A stretch of 7,379 nt of DNA from Thioalkalivibrio sp. (GTDB lineage Bacteria; Pseudomonadota; Gammaproteobacteria; Ectothiorhodospirales; Ectothiorhodospiraceae): assembly GCA_003555285.1 (NCBI GenBank), contig PWGH01000167.1:1-7379 (forward strand), written 5' to 3'. Below the pieces are notes generated by a model. That model had not been told where the DNA came from. It worked only from the letters and a program-made list of their open reading frames with translations, and made no database searches. Made by a program: the position numbers and the translations under genes. How positions within the stretch are numbered: the first letter of the stretch is position 1; each line of letters opens with the position of its first letter. Shown piece after piece: positions 1 through 6,333 of this stretch.

Positions 1-99
1 GAAAGTACCGAAAGTACCGAAAGTACCGAAAGTATGGAAAGTATGGAAAGTATGGAAAGTATGGAAAGTATGGAAAGTATGGAAAGTATGGAAAGTATG
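1..99. repeat. 9-bp tandem repeat array (11 units, runs off the left edge)
   Basis: Eleven head-to-tail 9-bp units: the first three read GAAAGTACC and the next eight GAAAGTATG, with no other variation. The block is distinctly more AT-rich than the genes around it. The run of eight identical units suggests recent expansion by replication slippage, and the ACC/ATG split shows that at least one unit variant was itself amplified. The array continues beyond base 1, so its true copy number is unknown. The unit is three codons long, so all frames stay open, but there is no start signal and the composition argues against coding. Confidence 0.95.
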
Positions 100-122
100 G
101 TGATTCCAGTCTTTACAGTTTA

Positions 123-147
123 TTCCGTGCTTTCCGTGCTTTCCGTG
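123..147. repeat. short 9-bp tandem repeat (TTCCGTGCT, about 2.8 units)
   Basis: Two exact copies of TTCCGTGCT (123-131 and 132-140) and a third partial one (141-147) that merges into the following 20-bp array. Read on the minus strand the unit is AGCACGGAA, so it carries the GGAAAG core of the left-hand array in inverse orientation. I recall CACGGA-type degenerate short repeats between genes of several GC-rich proteobacteria, but could not verify this. Confidence 0.8.
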
Positions 148-217
148 GCTAACTTTCTTCATTCGTGGCTAACTTTCTTCATCCGTGGCTAACTTTCTTC
201 ATCCGTGGCTGACTTTC
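143..217. repeat. 20-bp tandem repeat array (about 3.75 units)
   Basis: Units at 143-162, 163-182 and 183-202 read CCGTGGCTAACTTTCTTCAT, with one substitution (initial C to T) in the second. A partial, diverged unit fills 203-217. On the minus strand each unit contains GAAAGT, the same core as the 9-bp array at 1-99. The block lies about 40 bp beyond the stop codon of the minus-strand RNA ligase gene, so it would be in the 3' tail of that transcript if there is readthrough. Confidence 0.92.
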
Positions 218-1485: not shown

Positions 1486-2829
1486 ATGAAAAAACCTGCA
1501 GGGGCTCCGGTCGCCTTGGCCCCCGAGGCTCTGGCGCTGCTGGAGGTGTATCACGAGCCGGCCGTACTGCTCGATCTCGACTACGTCATCCTGGCCGCGA
1601 ACGCTGCCTATCGGGAGGCCTACGGCGCGCCGCCGGCGCAGCGCCGGCATTGCTTCGAGGTTTCTCACAACTACGCGGTACCCTGCGACCAGGCGGGCGA
1701 GAGTTGCCCGCTGAAGACGACCCTGGAGACCGGGAGGATGACCCGGGTGATGCACCTGCACCACACGCCCCGCGGCGACGAGCATGTCGAAGTGGAAACC
1801 AGACCCATCGCCGGCGCCGACGGGGCCACGCGGTACATCCTGGAGATCATGCGCCACACCCGGCTCGCGAGTGCCGATCCCGGGGCCAAGGGCATGGTCG
1901 GGCGTTCGCCCGCGTTCACGCGCATGCTCGGCCTGATGCAGCGCGCGGCCCCCAGCGAGGCCGCCGTGCTGCTGTTGGGGGAAACCGGCACCGGCAAGGA
2001 GATGGTGGCGCAGGCGATCCATGCGGCGAGCCTGCGCAGCACCGGACCCTTCGTCCCGGTGGAATGCGCCGGATTGACCGAGACCCTGTTCGAGAGCGAG
2101 CTCTTCGGTCATGAGAAGGGGGCCTTCACCGGGGCGGCCAGCCTGAAGACCGGGTTGGTCGAGGCCGCGCGTGGTGGCACGCTGTTCCTGGACGAGGTCG
2201 GGGATATTCCGCTGTCGATGCAGGTCAAGCTGCTGCGGCTGCTGGAGACCGGCTGCTTCCGGCGGGTCGGCAGCACGGTCGCCCAGGAATCCGATTTTCG
2301 TCTGATCTGCGCGACCCATCGGGATCTGAAGGCGCAGGTGGCCGCCGGGGAGTTTCGTCTGGACCTGTACTTTCGGCTCAGCGTGTTTCCGATTGCACTG
2401 CCGCCCCTGCGCCAGCGCCGTGAGGATCTGCCGCTGCTGGTCGAGGTGCTGTTGCGCCGGCTGCGTTCAGCACGCGGCATGCGCCTGACGTCGGCCGCGC
2501 TGGAGGCCTTGGAGGACATGGACTTTCCCGGCAACATTCGCGAACTGCGCAACATCCTGGAGCGCGCGAGTCTGCTCACCGACGGGGATGCCATCGGCGT
2601 GGCCGAGGTGACGGTCGACCTCGAGTCGCCCATTGGCCAGGAGGGGTGTCCCTGGGGCGATACGGTAATTCCGCTGGCCGAACTCGAGCGCTTCTACCTA
2701 GCACGGGTATTGGCCCGGTATCCGGAGGATCGCCAGGAATTGGCGCGCCGTCTGGGGATCTCGGAACGAACGCTGTACCGCAAGCTGCAGCGCATCGAGG
2801 GCGACCCGGATCCGACCGAGGCGACCTGA
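1486..2829 (+). CDS. PAS-domain sigma-54-dependent transcriptional activator (AAA+, Fis-type HTH)
   Basis: A 447-aa cytoplasmic enhancer-binding protein that would remodel sigma-54 RNA polymerase with ATP. Domains: an N-terminal PAS-like sensor (about 17-125); an AAA+ core (about 137-365) with Walker A GETGTGKE (165-172), the sigma-54-contacting loop GAFTGA (212-217) and Walker B GTLFLDEV (231-238), followed by [10 protein letters not shown] (347-356); and a C-terminal Fis-type helix-turn-helix (about 395-436, [19 protein letters not shown]). No phosphoreceiver domain is present, so control is probably by ligand or redox state through PAS. The PAS domain has Cys56, His61, Cys67 and Cys74 in the pattern CFEVSH-x5-PC-x6-CPL, which could hold a metal or cofactor (inference). 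ATG 1486 fits the PAS start; the frame continues far upstream, but only antisense to the ligase gene. The 244 bp after its stop contain two sigma-54-type promoters, its most likely targets. Confidence 0.95.
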
Positions 2830-2858
2830 GCCCGCAGACCGTGCCCGAACGCCCCGCG

Positions 2859-2873
2859 CAGGGGCAACCCCTG
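2859..2873. promoter_or_regulatory. CAGGGG-N3-CCCCTG dyad, candidate enhancer for the adjacent activator
   Basis: CAGGGG-CAA-CCCCTG is a perfect 6-bp inverted repeat with a 3-bp spacer, 30 bp past the regulator stop. It overlaps another GC hairpin (GCCCC-GCGCA-GGGGC, 2851-2865). Single half-sites recur downstream: CCCCTG at 2907-2912 and CAGGGG at 2944-2949. Fis-type activators bind dyads upstream of -24/-12 promoters. This dyad lies about 60 bp before the predicted start from the 2902 element and about 180 bp before that from the 3018 element, a usable enhancer distance. Its assignment to this regulator is inference. Confidence 0.35.
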
Positions 2874-2901
2874 TCAGCCGTTGTGCAGCCACTGCCAGAT
2901 G

Positions 2902-2916
2902 TGGCACCCCTGTTGC
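2902..2916 (+). promoter_or_regulatory. sigma-54 (-24/-12) promoter P1
   Basis: TGGCACCCCTGTTGC matches the TGGCAC-N5-TTGC consensus exactly, with GG (2903-2904) and GC (2915-2916) exactly 10 bp apart as sigma-54 requires. Transcription would start near 2928, reading into the small ORF at 3074 with a leader of about 145 nt. The -12 half overlaps the palindrome TTGCGCAA (2913-2920). It lies immediately downstream of a sigma-54 activator gene. Confidence 0.6.
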
Positions 2917-2956
2917 GCAAAGGGCAAGAAAACAACAGGAGACCAGGGGGGCGAAG

Positions 2957-3000
2957 AATACTATTATAGTTTTATAAAATAACGGTTTAAGCATAAAAAG
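2957..3000. promoter_or_regulatory. AT-rich palindromic tract between the two sigma-54 elements
   Basis: A sharp AT-rich island in GC-rich DNA, containing two adjacent perfect inverted repeats: ACTAT-T-ATAGT (2960-2970) and TTTTATAAAA (2970-2979), then TTTAAGCATAAAAAG. Placed upstream of a sigma-54 promoter, it could be a bending region of the IHF type or an additional operator. I found no exact match to the IHF consensus. TATTAT-like -10 hexamers occur, but with no acceptable -35. Confidence 0.35.
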
Positions 3001-3017
3001 TGGCTGCGATGCCTCGA

Positions 3018-3032
3018 TGGCACGGGTTGTGC
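3018..3032 (+). promoter_or_regulatory. sigma-54 (-24/-12) promoter P2
   Basis: TGGCACGGGTTGTGC matches TGGCAC-N5-TTGC with one change (first T of TTGC is G). The invariant GG (3019-3020) and GC (3031-3032) are exactly 10 bp apart, and the full TGGCACG of the -24 element is present. Transcription would start near 3043-3045, about 30 nt upstream of the small ORF's start codon. This is the better-placed promoter for the small ORF. Confidence 0.6.
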
Positions 3033-3062
3033 TTTGATCCAGAAGACACAGCCCGCGTCCAT

Positions 3063-3067
3063 AGGAG
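3063..3067 (+). promoter_or_regulatory. ribosome binding site of the 24-aa ORF
   Basis: AGGAG sits 6 nt before the ATG at 3074, the best Shine-Dalgarno in the window. It is the main reason to accept the tiny ORF. A complementary CTCCT at 3228-3232 in the same transcript's 3' part could pair with it. Confidence 0.65.
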
Positions 3068-3073
3068 TTTTCC

Positions 3074-3148
3074 ATGAGTATTCTGCAGTCATCGGCCCTT
3101 GCCTTCCTGACGATCCTCGGAGCGATCCTGCTGGCTTCCATGCTGTAG
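3074..3148 (+). CDS. 24-aa uncharged single-span membrane peptide, unrecognised
   Basis: I do not recognise this peptide. It starts MSILQSSALAFLT and ends ILLASML. Residues 8-24 are a continuous hydrophobic stretch long enough for one membrane span, only Gln5 and a few Ser/Thr are polar, and there is no charged residue at all. In favour of a real gene: AGGAG with 6-nt spacing, a sigma-54-type promoter about 30 nt upstream of the start codon, a second one further up, and a strong intrinsic terminator 98 nt past the stop with no other plausible gene inside the unit. Size and hydrophobicity recall small inner-membrane regulators (CydX, KdpF class) and type I toxins (Ibs, TisB class), but I see no sequence link to either. 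It may alternatively be incidental to a regulatory RNA made from the same promoter. Confidence 0.6.
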   Translation: MSILQSSALAFLTILGAILLASML

Positions 3149-3246
3149 CCCGTTCTTTGAAGGGAGCCCACCGAGCCCGCAACGACCCGATGGCTTCGTT
3201 CTGGCGCTTCTTTTTTCTTGCGCGAACCTCCTCCATCGCGCCCTTG

Positions 3247-3270
3247 CCGCCCTCACGGGCGGTTTTTTTT
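3247..3270 (+). terminator. Rho-independent terminator
   Basis: A perfect 6-bp GC stem, CCGCCC-TCAC-GGGCGG (3247-3262), is followed directly by eight T (3263-3270). It ends the small-ORF transcript and insulates it from the oxidoreductase operon. A weaker hairpin plus T-rich run lies earlier (AACGA/TCGTT at 3181-3200, then a T-rich stretch at 3208-3219), so there may be two 3' ends. Confidence 0.9.
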
Positions 3271-3272
3271 GC

Positions 3273-3290
3273 GCCGGGTGGGAACCCGGC
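3273..3290. other. perfect hairpin directly after the terminator
   Basis: GCCGGGT-GGGA-ACCCGGC is a 7-bp stem with a 4-nt loop, 2 bp past the terminator T-run. No T-run follows. It may be a backup terminator stem, a protein-binding dyad or a chance GC palindrome. Confidence 0.3.
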
Positions 3291-3363
3291 ATGGGGGCGG
3301 CGTCCTTGGGGCTGCGCGCTGCGGCAGCGGCTGCTACTCTCTGGAAAGGAATCCGGGCGGTAT

Positions 3364-3384
3364 GCGGCCGGGAGTACAGGCCGC
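3364..3384 (+). other. hairpin in the leader of the oxidoreductase operon
   Basis: GCGGCC-N9-GGCCGC forms a 6-bp stem 54 bp before the start codon at 3439. An extended -10-like TGCTACTCT lies at 3332-3340 without a good -35, so a transcript starting near 3347 would carry this stem in its leader. I recognise no known riboswitch. The rest of 3291-3438 shows nothing else I can support. Confidence 0.22.
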
Positions 3385-3438
3385 CTGGCCTGAGCGATTT
3401 CCACGCCAAGCCCGACAGGTTACAAGGACACGCACAGC

Positions 3439-4926
3439 ATGGAACGACAGCTCTCGGTGATGCGAGCGGCAAAGTTGGTGGGTGTCACCCGGGCCGAATT
3501 GCAGGCCCGCATCAAATGCGGAGCGTTGGCGAGCTTCGATGGCCTGGTGCAGGTGAGCGACTTGCTCGCATTGTATCCGGCGACCCGCCTGGCAGAGGAG
3601 CGGACGCTGGAGCGCCTGGACCGGATCAAGGCCGAGGCCCTGGGCCGGAATGTCGCCGGACGCAGTCTTCCCGACCCTCAGGTGCTGGCCCAGCGCCTGG
3701 GGGTGCTGGGACATCAGTTGACCCGTGCCCGTCAGCAGGCGGAGCATTACACGGGCGTGCTGGCGGCCTTGGAGCGTCACCTGCGCAGCCTGGAGAGGAA
3801 TCCGGATGAAGCCCAACGAGCGGTCGTGCAGGACATCAAGCTCTGGATGCAGAGCGCCTTGCGTCAGGGCACGACCGCGGCCGCCGACGCTCCGTTGGAT
3901 GGGGGGAGTTGGTTCAGCGTGCTGACACCGCAGATCCGTTTGCTGCCCGGAAACCACGAATTCCTGGTGGAAGGCTCGGATACCGTGCTCGAGGCCGCGC
4001 TGCGCGCCGGGCTGTCGCTGAGCTACGGCTGCAGCAACGGCAACTGTGGCGAGTGCAAGGCCCGCATCGTGTCCGGGGAGGTGCGTGAGGTGCGCCCGCA
4101 CGACCACGTGATCAGCGAGGTGGAACGGCTGCAGGGCTATACCTTGCTGTGCACGGTCGCACCGGTCACCGATCTGGTCATCGAGGGGGGAGTGGCGCAC
4201 CTTCCTGAAGACCTCCCGCTGCAGACGATCGACGCGACGGTGCGCGCGATCGAACATCCGGGTCCGCATGTGGCGTTGTTGAAGGTGCAAACCCCCCGGA
4301 CCCGACGGCTGCGCTTTCTGGGCGGCCAATACGCGCGCCTGCGCCTCGATGGCGTCGCCGCCGAGGCCTGGTTGCCGCTGGCCAATTGCCCCTGCGACGA
4401 CCGCAACCTGGTCTTTCACGTCGTCGAGGATCGCTCGGACCCCTTTGCCGTCCGGTGCTTCGAGGGCCTGCGCAAGGGCGATCGGGTCCAGCTCGAGGGT
4501 CCCTTCGGCGAATTCGTGATGCCCGAGGGCATCGAACGGCCCCTGGTCTTTCTCGCGTGTGACACCGGCTTCGCACCGATCAAGAGCCTGATCGAACATG
4601 TGATCGCCCTCGATACCGTCGATGCGATGGACCTGATCTGGGTCGCCACCGGGGCCGTCGGCCACTACCAGGACAACCTGTGCCGCTCCTGGGACGATGC
4701 GCTGGACGGTTTTCACTACAAACCGGTGCGGGTGAACGCCGCCAGCACGCCGGAGGCCTGGTCGGCTGTGCTGAGCGGCAGTCTGGCGCGGCTGGAGGAT
4801 CCCGTGGAGCACGATTTCTTCGTCGCCGGACCGGCCTTCTTCGTCGCGCTCGCGCTGTCTGCGCTGGAGCGGCTGGGGGTGGCTTCGGAACGGATCGTGC
4901 CGCAGATCCTCCCGCCGCCGCGTTGA
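3439..4926 (+). CDS. fusion oxidoreductase: HTH-like/coiled-coil + 2Fe-2S ferredoxin + ferredoxin-reductase-like module
   Basis: A predicted 495-aa soluble electron-transfer protein. Residues 1-50 look like a small helix-turn-helix or excisionase-like fold (SVMRAAKLVGVTRAELQARI). Residues 52-145 are helical with a probable coiled coil. Residues 163-250 are a plant-type [2Fe-2S] ferredoxin with ligands Cys198, Cys203, Cys206 and Cys238 (C-x4-C-x2-C-x31-C). Residues 265-495 resemble the FAD/NAD(P)H reductase module of phenol hydroxylase/CDP-6-deoxyglucoseen reductase relatives, with a nucleotide-site motif FLACDTGFAPIKS (371-383). The usual flavin-binding R-x-Y-S is replaced by AWLP (310-313) before LAN, so flavin binding is doubtful. 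Start ATG 3439 has AAGGA (3424-3428) 10 nt upstream. It is probably first in an operon with the next two genes, 10 bp from the second. Partner and substrate are unknown. Confidence 0.85.
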   Translation: MERQLSVMRAAKLVGVTRAELQARIKCGALASFDGLVQVSDLLALYPATRLAEERTLERLDRIKAEALGRNVAGRSLPDPQVLAQRLGVLGHQLTRARQQAEHYTGVLAALERHLRSLERNPDEAQRAVVQDIKLWMQSALRQGTTAAADAPLDGGSWFSVLTPQIRLLPGNHEFLVEGSDTVLEAALRAGLSLSYGCSNGNCGECKARIVSGEVREVRPHDHVISEVERLQGYTLLCTVAPVTDLVIEGGVAHLPEDLPLQTIDATVRAIEHPGPHVALLKVQTPRTRRLRFLGGQYARLRLDGVAAEAWLPLANCPCDDRNLVFHVVEDRSDPFAVRCFEGLRKGDRVQLEGPFGEFVMPEGIERPLVFLACDTGFAPIKSLIEHVIALDTVDAMDLIWVATGAVGHYQDNLCRSWDDALDGFHYKPVRVNAASTPEAWSAVLSGSLARLEDPVEHDFFVAGPAFFVALALSALERLGVASERIVPQILPPPR

Positions 4927-4936
4927 GCCGTTTCCG

Positions 4937-5692
4937 TTGATCCCCTGCGCTACGCCGTCGCGGGTGCCGGAACCGGCCCAACCGGGCGACCCGCGACTTT
5001 CGATCGTGATTCCGGTGCTGAACGAGGCCGACCACCTGCCGCGGCTGCTCGGCGACCTCGAACCCCTGCGGGTGCAGGGCTGCGAGATCATCGTGGTCGA
5101 CGGCGGCAGCCGGGATGCGACGCTGGCCGTGGCCGCGGCGGGCGCGGATCGGGTGCTGCACGGCCCTCGCGGGCGGGCCCTGCAGATGAACACCGGCGCC
5201 GCCCGGGCCCGGGGTGCCGTGCTCTGGTTCCTGCATGCCGATACCCGGGTGCCGGGGTCCGTGGCCGCGGCGCTGCCGGATCCCGATCAGGGCGCATGGT
5301 CCTGGGGCCGCTGTGGCGTGCGCCTGTCCGGCGACCGGCGGGCCTTTCGGTTGATCGGCGCGCTGATGAACTTACGCTCCTGCCTGACCGGCATCGCGAC
5401 CGGGGACCAGGGGATCTTAGTGCGGCGCGCGGCCTTCGAGCGCGTCGGCGGCTTTCCGGAGATCCCGCTGATGGAGGACATCGCGCTGTCGCGCCAATTG
5501 AAGCAGAGCTTCGGCCGTCCCTGCTGCCTGCGGGCGCACCTGATCACCTCGAGTCGGCGCTGGGAGACCGGCGGTATCGGGCGCACCGTACTGCTGATGT
5601 GGAGCCTGCGTCTGGCCTACTGGGCCGGCGCCGACCCGGCTGCGCTCGCCCGGCGGTATCGAAGCGCGCAAGCGCTGCCGGGGGGGTCGTGA
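4937..5692 (+). CDS. family 2 glycosyltransferase, TIGR04283-type
   Basis: A 251-aa GT-A fold transferase. It has the N-terminal nucleotide-sugar strand LSIVIPVLNEADHL (21-34), IIVVDGGSRDAT (51-62), the metal-binding LHADTR (99-104), ATGDQGILVRR (154-164) and PLMEDIALSRQLK (177-189), all typical of the TIGR04283 group annotated as arsenosugar-biosynthesis or rSAM/selenodomain-associated transferase 2. A hydrophobic stretch near the C-terminus (217-231) may associate with the membrane. Start is uncertain: TTG 4937 has a poor Shine-Dalgarno and GTG 4964 would give 242 aa; both precede the conserved fold. The stop overlaps the next gene by 4 bp, indicating translational coupling with its usual partner family. 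No radical SAM or selenoprotein gene lies in the window, so the arsenosugar role is by family name only. Confidence 0.88.
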   Translation: MIPCATPSRVPEPAQPGDPRLSIVIPVLNEADHLPRLLGDLEPLRVQGCEIIVVDGGSRDATLAVAAAGADRVLHGPRGRALQMNTGAARARGAVLWFLHADTRVPGSVAAALPDPDQGAWSWGRCGVRLSGDRRAFRLIGALMNLRSCLTGIATGDQGILVRRAAFERVGGFPEIPLMEDIALSRQLKQSFGRPCCLRAHLITSSRRWETGGIGRTVLLMWSLRLAYWAGADPAALARRYRSAQALPGGS

Positions 5693-6333
5693 GGGTGTTG
5701 GTCTTCGCCCGGGCGCCGGTGGCCGGAGCGGCGAAGACCCGGCTGATGCCGGCCCTCGGCGGTGAAGGCGCGGCGCATCTGCACCGCCGCCTGGTGCGCC
5801 GTGCGCTGGGCATGGCCACCGGCGCTGGCATCGGCCCGGTCGAACTCTGGTGTGCACCGGATGCACGGCATCCCTTTTTTGCGGCCTGCCGGCAGGACTT
5901 TGGCTGCACGCTGCACGCACAGTCATCGGGCGATCTGGGGGCGCGCATGCGCCAGGCGCTGGAGACCGGTGGCGTTGCCGGTGGCGCGGTCGGCCTGCCG
6001 GCCCTGGTGCTGGGCTCCGATGCGCCGGGGCTGCAGGCGGGGACGCTGCAGGCCGCCGGCCGTGCGCTGCACACCGGGCGGGATTGCGTGCTGGTTCCGG
6101 CCCTGGATGGCGGCTATGTACTGATCGGGCTCGCGGTGTCCGCTCCGGCGTTGTTCGAGGCCATGCCCTGGGGTACCGAAACGGTGCTGGAGCAGACCCG
6201 GCGCCGGTGCCGCCAGCAGGGCCTGGACCTGGCCGAATGGCCGCCCGTACCGGACATCGACGTCCCAGAGGACCTGGTCCATTGCCCCCCGGAGCTGTGG
6301 CGGGATCTGCGCATCGATGCCTCAGCCGAGTAG
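5689..6333 (+). CDS. TIGR04282/DUF2064-type transferase (GT-A fold)
   Basis: A 214-aa protein of the DUF2064/COG3222 group, annotated as rSAM/selenodomain-associated transferase 1. Motifs: nucleotide-binding LVFARAPVAGAAKTRL (4-19), VLGSDAPGL (107-115) with the likely metal-binding Asp111, VPALDGGYVLIGL (136-148), and C-terminal DIDVPEDL (189-196). The GTG start overlaps the previous TGA stop as GTGA; an upstream extension of the same frame exists only inside the previous gene. It is almost always next to a TIGR04283 partner, as here, and the two probably act in one sugar-transfer pathway whose product cannot be told from this sequence. Confidence 0.88.
   Translation: MRVLVFARAPVAGAAKTRLMPALGGEGAAHLHRRLVRRALGMATGAGIGPVELWCAPDARHPFFAACRQDFGCTLHAQSSGDLGARMRQALETGGVAGGAVGLPALVLGSDAPGLQAGTLQAAGRALHTGRDCVLVPALDGGYVLIGLAVSAPALFEAMPWGTETVLEQTRRRCRQQGLDLAEWPPVPDIDVPEDLVHCPPELWRDLRIDASAE

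Follow-up and report, generated by a model that had tools for sequence, protein, structure and literature searches.

A conserved sigma-54-type unit of Thioalkalivibrio-like bacteria with a 24-codon ORF and an anti-Shine-Dalgarno hairpin, a candidate dual-function RNA

We analysed a 7,379-nucleotide stretch of Thioalkalivibrio sp. DNA (hereafter the window) and found that the region following the gene of a PAS-type activator very probably constitutes a conserved sigma-54-type unit coding for a 24-aa peptide. The unit also contains a 3' hairpin with an anti-Shine-Dalgarno (anti-SD) loop, an element absent from the earlier reading of the locus. Sequence comparison supports the unit itself, its coding ORF, the conserved hairpin and a fixed spacing between palindrome and promoter. 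The original prediction had described one self-contained unit with two sigma-54 promoters, and a product that was either a roughly 230-nt RNA or the peptide. Block-wise conservation, coding-type substitutions and unlinked copies uphold a single unit with one promoter, the peptide and a terminator, but not the two promoters. The either/or does not stand, as both parts are conserved, the peptide as protein and the hairpin as RNA sequence. Our preferred reading, to which we give even credence, is a dual-function transcript that would combine a membrane micropeptide with an anti-SD small RNA (sRNA).

The unit is flanked in the window by the gene of its presumed regulator (1486..2829, + strand), a 447-aa protein with PAS_4, sigma-54 AAA+ and Fis-HTH domains in Pfam, and by a gene (3439-4926, + strand) whose product resembles a 2Fe-2S reductase and is extended at its N-terminus. 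An RNA ligase gene (259-1368, - strand; family match to TIGR01209) precedes the activator, while the reductase is followed by TIGR04283 and TIGR04282 genes (4937-6330), each with the family name arsenosugar biosynthesis glycosyltransferase; then come a 91-aa ORF and, on the minus strand, an aminotransferase-like piece. Relatives were obtained by whole-genome searches, of which the productive one covered an order with 47 genomes; those in the orders of G341, G086 and G182 yielded nothing useful. The activator was found at E<=1e-140 in 24 of the 47 genomes, with 71-76% identity in 13, 66-68% in 2 and 56-59% in 9, and the close homologues carrying a species name belong to Thioalkalivibrio. Ten of the 13 genomes in the first group have the downstream region on the same contig (L134-L139, L141-L143 and L145); L140, L144 and L146 were excluded as their contigs end 0-106 nt past the activator. 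G463, one of the three genomes cut in this way, has the region on a separate contig (L188), which we equated with the locus on the strength of the TIGR04283 and TIGR04282 genes that follow; counting it brings the relatives to 11. Alignment A2 and covariance model R1 comprise the window and ten relatives, without G463, and pN/pS was computed on the window and nine. Gene order around the unit was identical in the five longer stretches examined (L194-L197 and L200), and the TIGR04283/TIGR04282 pair adjoins the unit in relatives too.

Conservation in the aligned relatives takes the form of islands within a drifting background. The first island, a palindrome CTGCCA-GATG-TGGCAC (2892..2907), is the presumed enhancer site bound by the activator, and the enhancer dyad proposed here earlier is indeed conserved as a palindrome. 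Its form in the aligned relatives is CTGmCA-N4-TGGCrC, with CTGCCA-N4-TGGCAG in L137 and L138 and a more diverged version in G463. The sigma-54 -24/-12 element TGGCAC-N7-TGC (3018..3033, + strand) matches 10 of 11 consensus positions in the window, and the window and 10 relatives score 9-10 in a scan that demanded GG and GC. The distance from the start of the palindrome to that of the -24/-12 element is 125-127 nt in 10 of the 11 sequences (window and relatives) and 138 nt in L137. Transcription would be expected to start near 3044. The predicted AT-rich tract is also present: a 65-nt spacer (2932..2996), 40-105 nt past the palindrome start, is 65% AT in a window of 67% GC and 58-74% AT in 10 sequences, with a short conserved A-rich core.

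Another -24/-12-like match (2902..2917, + strand) overlaps the palindrome and also reaches 10 of 11 consensus positions in the window, so that both consensus elements of the original prediction are present. Dinucleotide shuffles of 2830-3438 (n=2000) contained at least one site scoring 10 or more in 1.6% of cases and two such sites in none. However, a GG-N10-GC match of at least 8/11 was found at the 2902 place in only two of 11 sequences (the window and L141). We therefore rejected two tandem promoters, since the palindrome is conserved at this place and the GG-N10-GC element is not. The 2902 element is probably not a promoter and is better read as the activator's binding site.

We searched 16 genomes for the exact palindrome pattern and obtained 8 matches, seven at the locus, which is the source of the pattern, and one elsewhere (G463:C217). 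Allowing up to one mismatch gave 54 matches vs 138 for the reversed pattern. A wider activator regulon was thus rejected, since outside the locus the pattern does not exceed chance frequency. The near absence of the exact palindrome elsewhere suggests that this promoter may be almost the only one served by the activator, in a scan that degenerate sites would escape. With the presumed site nearly without other exact matches in the genomes searched, the output of the activator may be readable from one RNA.

Downstream of the promoter, we confirmed a Shine-Dalgarno sequence AGGAG (3063..3067, + strand) and a 24-codon ORF (3074..3148, + strand, stop TAG) for the hydrophobic single-span peptide MSILQSSALAFLTILGAILLASML. 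No larger gene fits between promoter and terminator, as had been stated: no ORF of at least 60 aa lies wholly inside, and several longer ORFs overlap parts of the region on both strands. The expectation that the peptide would recur downstream of orthologous activators was borne out, as the Shine-Dalgarno sequence and the ORF were found in the window and in 9 of the 11 relatives with a readable region; among relatives keeping the activator, the 3018 element is conserved in 10. The expected bias toward synonymous substitutions was likewise observed. pN/pS was 0.14 over 36 pairs of nine relatives (pS 0.48, pN 0.066) and 0.25 with the window included, vs 4.1 and 2.0 in the other two frames without the window. 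Variable columns numbered 5, 5 and 19 at codon positions 1, 2 and 3, respectively (binomial p 5e-4, a value that ignores shared ancestry). The window peptide is the most diverged copy, with pN 0.33 and pS 0.47 against the others and 54% identity to that of L134. It is uncharged, as predicted, whereas the peptides of the relatives carry K or R at position 2. These comparisons argue clearly that the ORF codes for a protein under purifying selection, which would be translated and located in the membrane. Its GRAVY hydropathy is 1.92.

The ORF is followed, after about 40 to 190 nt of spacer without conservation, by a 22-nt hairpin, GCGCGA-ACCTCCTCCA-TCGCGC (RNA GCGCGA-ACCUCCUCCA-UCGCGC; 3220..3241, + strand), recognised by alignment, folds and covariance-model search. 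Its loop (3226-3235) carries the anti-SD motif UCCUCC in every one of the 11 aligned sequences. The hairpin is nearly invariant in these sequences beside the freely drifting spacer, with TCCTCCATCGCGC unchanged throughout and 7 of the 10 loop positions (TCCTCCA) invariant. The perfect intrinsic terminator of the original prediction was confirmed after it (3246..3270, + strand), with a stem at 3246-3262 and T8 at 3263-3270. Hairpin and terminator occur in the window and in all 11 relatives, including G441 and G442, which keep the promoter and lack the ORF.

In each of the three 3' stretches that were folded, the minimum-energy structure included the hairpin. The z score was -4.58 for the last 60 nt of the window, -3.08 for a 70-nt stretch of L135 and -1.25 for one of 121 nt in L137, the last not clearly better than shuffles. 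The hairpin was also predicted, as the only anti-SD one, within the complete 226-nt transcript of the window, which as a whole folds no better than its shuffles (z -0.69), 52 of the 200 being as good. Covariation of the stem was uninformative because the stem hardly varies. A covariance-model search of the 47 genomes returned 12 matches above 60 bits in 11 genomes; ten of these had built the model, and the additional two were G463:C51 and the unlinked G458:C73. Six of the weaker matches, below 40 bits, were examined and set aside, as all end in ordinary terminators. Identity with a known RNA family was rejected, since Rfam gave no match at the gathering score and only three weak matches (up to E 5) far below cut-offs.

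A promoter and a hairpin kept where the ORF is lacking, as in G441 and G442, would be expected of a pure non-coding sRNA with an incidental ORF. We rejected this reading, which we regard as barely credible, on the codon pattern of substitutions, and the peptide copies at unlinked loci also speak against it. The hairpin could instead belong to the activator mRNA, as its 3' UTR or terminator, or to the regulation of the downstream reductase, rather than to a sigma-54 transcript: it sits between both genes on the same strand and would stop read-through from the activator. We consider this improbable, because the unlinked locus G458:C73 has promoter, peptide and hairpin beside other genes, and because the unit is still present in G463 and G465, where the reductase gene was not found after it.

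Weightier, if still doubtful in our judgement, is a plain small mRNA whose sole product is the micropeptide, the hairpin being a 3' UTR stability or processing element with no targets in trans. It would fit the clearly coding ORF, as well as three of the four unlinked peptide copies, where no hairpin match was found. Conversely, a hairpin and promoter kept without any ORF in G441 and G442 are difficult to explain on these terms, and a stability element would not need the invariance of the loop. These points favor the dual-function reading, against which stand the shuffle-like fold of the whole transcript, the nearly invariant stem, the diverged window peptide and the generic complementarity of the loop.

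To explore the distribution of the peptide, a profile of 8 peptides was run against the 47 genomes and gave 13 matches at E<=1.1e-13 in 10 genomes, followed by none below 0.1. Nine of the 13 matches lie at the activator locus and are mostly the sequences that built the profile. The remaining four are unlinked: G458:C73, itself in the profile, G465:C312, G466:C209 and G463:C238. The first is a copy with promoter, peptide and hairpin, while at the other three the search for the hairpin gave no match. The start codon is preceded by a -24/-12 element at 73 (G458:C73), 72 (G465:C312) and 83 nt (G463:C238), and this element in turn by a palindrome TGGTGC-N4-GCACC, whose start lies 114, 118 and 135 nt ahead of it, respectively; at G466:C209, the contig ends where the -24/-12 element would stand. 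Since this palindrome differs from that of the activator locus, the unlinked copies may answer to a second activator. Peptide without hairpin and hairpin without ORF both occur, which indicates that the two parts are separable, yet they are usually found together.

Three of the unlinked copies (L224 in G465:C312, L225 in G466:C209 and L226 in G463:C238) lie near an apparent RimK/zinc-protease cluster, as read from translations, and a further small hydrophobic ORF (MDMDIPLL...) closely follows the unlinked peptide in G465 and G466. The ribosome site of the unlinked peptide in L224 and L225, TGGAGAAGAA, is complementary to the type A loop UUCUCCUCCA at 9 of 10 positions. Two of 170 rough sites reach the same value, so we did not retain this complementarity as target evidence, and take it as a hint only.

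More than one copy of the peptide was present in three of the 10 peptide-bearing genomes, a feature that would suit a type I toxin, in which a tiny hydrophobic membrane peptide is held in check by an RNA, either antisense or through the 3' anti-SD hairpin in cis. Small type I toxins are similar to the 24-aa peptide in size and hydropathy. On the other hand, a scan of both window strands for one promoter type detected no sigma-70-like site, and the loop is a poor match to the ribosome site of the peptide itself (5 to 7 of 10 positions complementary in five type A loci). Furthermore, sigma-54 control by a single neighbour is, to our knowledge, unusual for such toxins, and we rate this explanation as highly improbable.

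G466, which has no activator match at E<=1e-140, carries on another contig (L228, G466:C114, 1-1345) an RNA-ligase gene directly beside the hairpin and what appear to be the last codons of the peptide, at the contig end. L228 is apparently a relic of the unit, which here lacks the activator along with the promoter and most of the ORF. We also searched 369 genomes drawn across the class, none a known carrier, with an extended profile whose only positive control is the 47-genome search of the order. No peptide match rose above chance: the best E was 0.006, and 18 genomes gave matches at E<=0.05, where chance alone would give about 18. We therefore rejected a broader distribution of the peptide.

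In the dual-function reading, the neighbouring PAS-type activator would bind the palindrome at 2892-2907, the DNA would loop over the AT-rich spacer, and the activator would open the promoter at 3018 to yield a single sigma-54 transcript of about 226-227 nt in the window. Translation would produce a 24-aa peptide spanning the inner membrane once and probably tuning a complex of the membrane, perhaps an electron-transfer complex. The 3' end, which is not translated, would fold so that the loop UCCUCC could pair with the Shine-Dalgarno sequences of target mRNAs, and the transcript would end at the intrinsic terminator. The conserved anti-SD loop is suggestive of such a base-pairing part.

The unit would combine three known kinds, the dual-function RNA, the anti-SD sRNA and the sigma-54 sRNA. 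The Qrr sRNAs of Vibrio are likewise expressed from a -24/-12 promoter under an NtrC-family activator, LuxO; unlike the unit, which has no sequence match to them in Rfam, we know of no conserved peptide in sigma-54 sRNAs of this type. CydX-type micropeptides are tiny single-span subunits of respiratory complexes, and relatives of the activator precede bd-oxidase-type genes in L003 and L198. In contrast, the unit has no oxidase genes alongside, its neighbours being the activator, the reductase, the arsenosugar-type enzymes and the RNA ligase. A CUCCUCC-type loop is also found in the CcsR RNAs.

According to the portions of the reports available, Pos19 of Rhodobacter sphaeroides and SgrS/SgrT of E. 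coli (PMC5036791), as well as VcdRP of Vibrio cholerae (PMC8672173), are coding sRNAs in which the RNA acts apart from the peptide. Like them, as far as they are described there, the unit would have a promoter and a terminator of its own and would hold, in one short RNA, a small ORF together with a putative base-pairing part. However, those are controlled by RpoE, CRP or SgrR, whereas here a sigma-54 promoter stands beside a presumed dedicated activator; the 24-aa peptide is unrelated to theirs, and pairing is putative here. SmelA075 and SmelA099 of Rhizobiales, in the part of the account at hand, form hairpin loops with the anti-SD motif CCUCCUCCC (PMC3927594), to which the UCCUCC loop is similar, but they have three or four such hairpins instead of one and belong to a different class of bacteria. 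The alphaproteobacterial ccaF1-CcsR (CIN1) transcripts (Rhodobacter) join a small protein and sRNAs ahead of a Rho-independent terminator, and CcaF1 is described, in the excerpt available, as a 71-aa DUF1127 RNA-binding protein under RpoHI/RpoHII control, with four CcsR RNAs (PMC10253847). The unit shares the arrangement of a small protein and an RNA element on one terminator-ended transcript, and differs in its hydrophobic 24-aa product and its sigma-54 promoter; DUF1127 was not found among the seven window proteins scanned. As anti-SD sRNAs, small proteins cotranscribed with sRNAs and coding sRNAs all exist elsewhere, we propose the dual-function RNA. No description of the unit itself was found in open-licence literature, and a survey of 50 genomes including Thioalkalivibrio names other motifs in the part available (PMC11109978).

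The activator offers some indications as to the signal. Cysteines 56, 67 and 74 of its PAS region are present in 26 of 26 aligned homologues and would fit a metal- or redox-sensing domain. In two T. sulfidiphilus-type genomes (L147 and L148), a -24/-12 element and the gene of a membrane protein come after the homologous activator. In a longer stretch of one of them (L198, G471, 7353-12667), this membrane protein matches Cyt_bd_oxida_I and Cytochrome_CBB3, both below cut-off, and the next genes encode another membrane protein, the flavoprotein of a flavocytochrome c sulfide dehydrogenase and a cytochrome c. In L003, an Oxalobacteraceae MAG, a 53% identical activator precedes a -24/-12 element and the gene of cytochrome bd subunit I. 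One may reasonably guess at a respiratory or sulfide signal, against which the scan of ten genes downstream of homologous activators counts: only L003 matches an oxidase family at cut-off, the others matching GcpE, an Fe-S assembly domain or nothing.

A bolder and unlikely extension is that, in one Thioalkalivibrio clade, an activator whose relatives precede bd-type oxidase and sulfide-dehydrogenase genes was rewired so that one RNA acts twice on respiration. The peptide would dock on a membrane electron-transfer complex, and the anti-SD hairpin would silence chosen mRNAs, including that of the unlinked paralogous peptide with the 9/10 site in G465 and G466. In T. sulfidiphilus-type genomes the homologous activator instead precedes a cytochrome and sulfide-dehydrogenase cluster, which makes it testable whether a small RNA has replaced protein genes as the output.

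Altogether, a small overlooked gene beside a regulator has been kept in most close relatives of these Thioalkalivibrio-like sulfur bacteria. It represents a lineage-restricted micropeptide family, clearly selected as protein and joined to a separately evolving RNA element. Relatives with both parts, the hairpin only or the peptide only allow the two functions to be told apart.

Several further features of the neighbourhood were observed. The RNA ligase gene adjoins the activator in longer relative stretches as well, and the TIGR01209 family is rare in bacteria. Such ligases have been linked to the protein-only RNase P HARP in a report whose available part names Thioalkalivibrio (PMC12153264). 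Three homologues of the reductase (P0144, P0145 and P0149) carry PF04358 in the same protein. This domain, which we take to be DsrC, points to a possible link to sulfur oxidation. Lastly, tandem repeats GAAAGTATG (period 9) and TCCGTGGCTAACTTTCTTCA (period 20) occupy the edge of the window (1-217).
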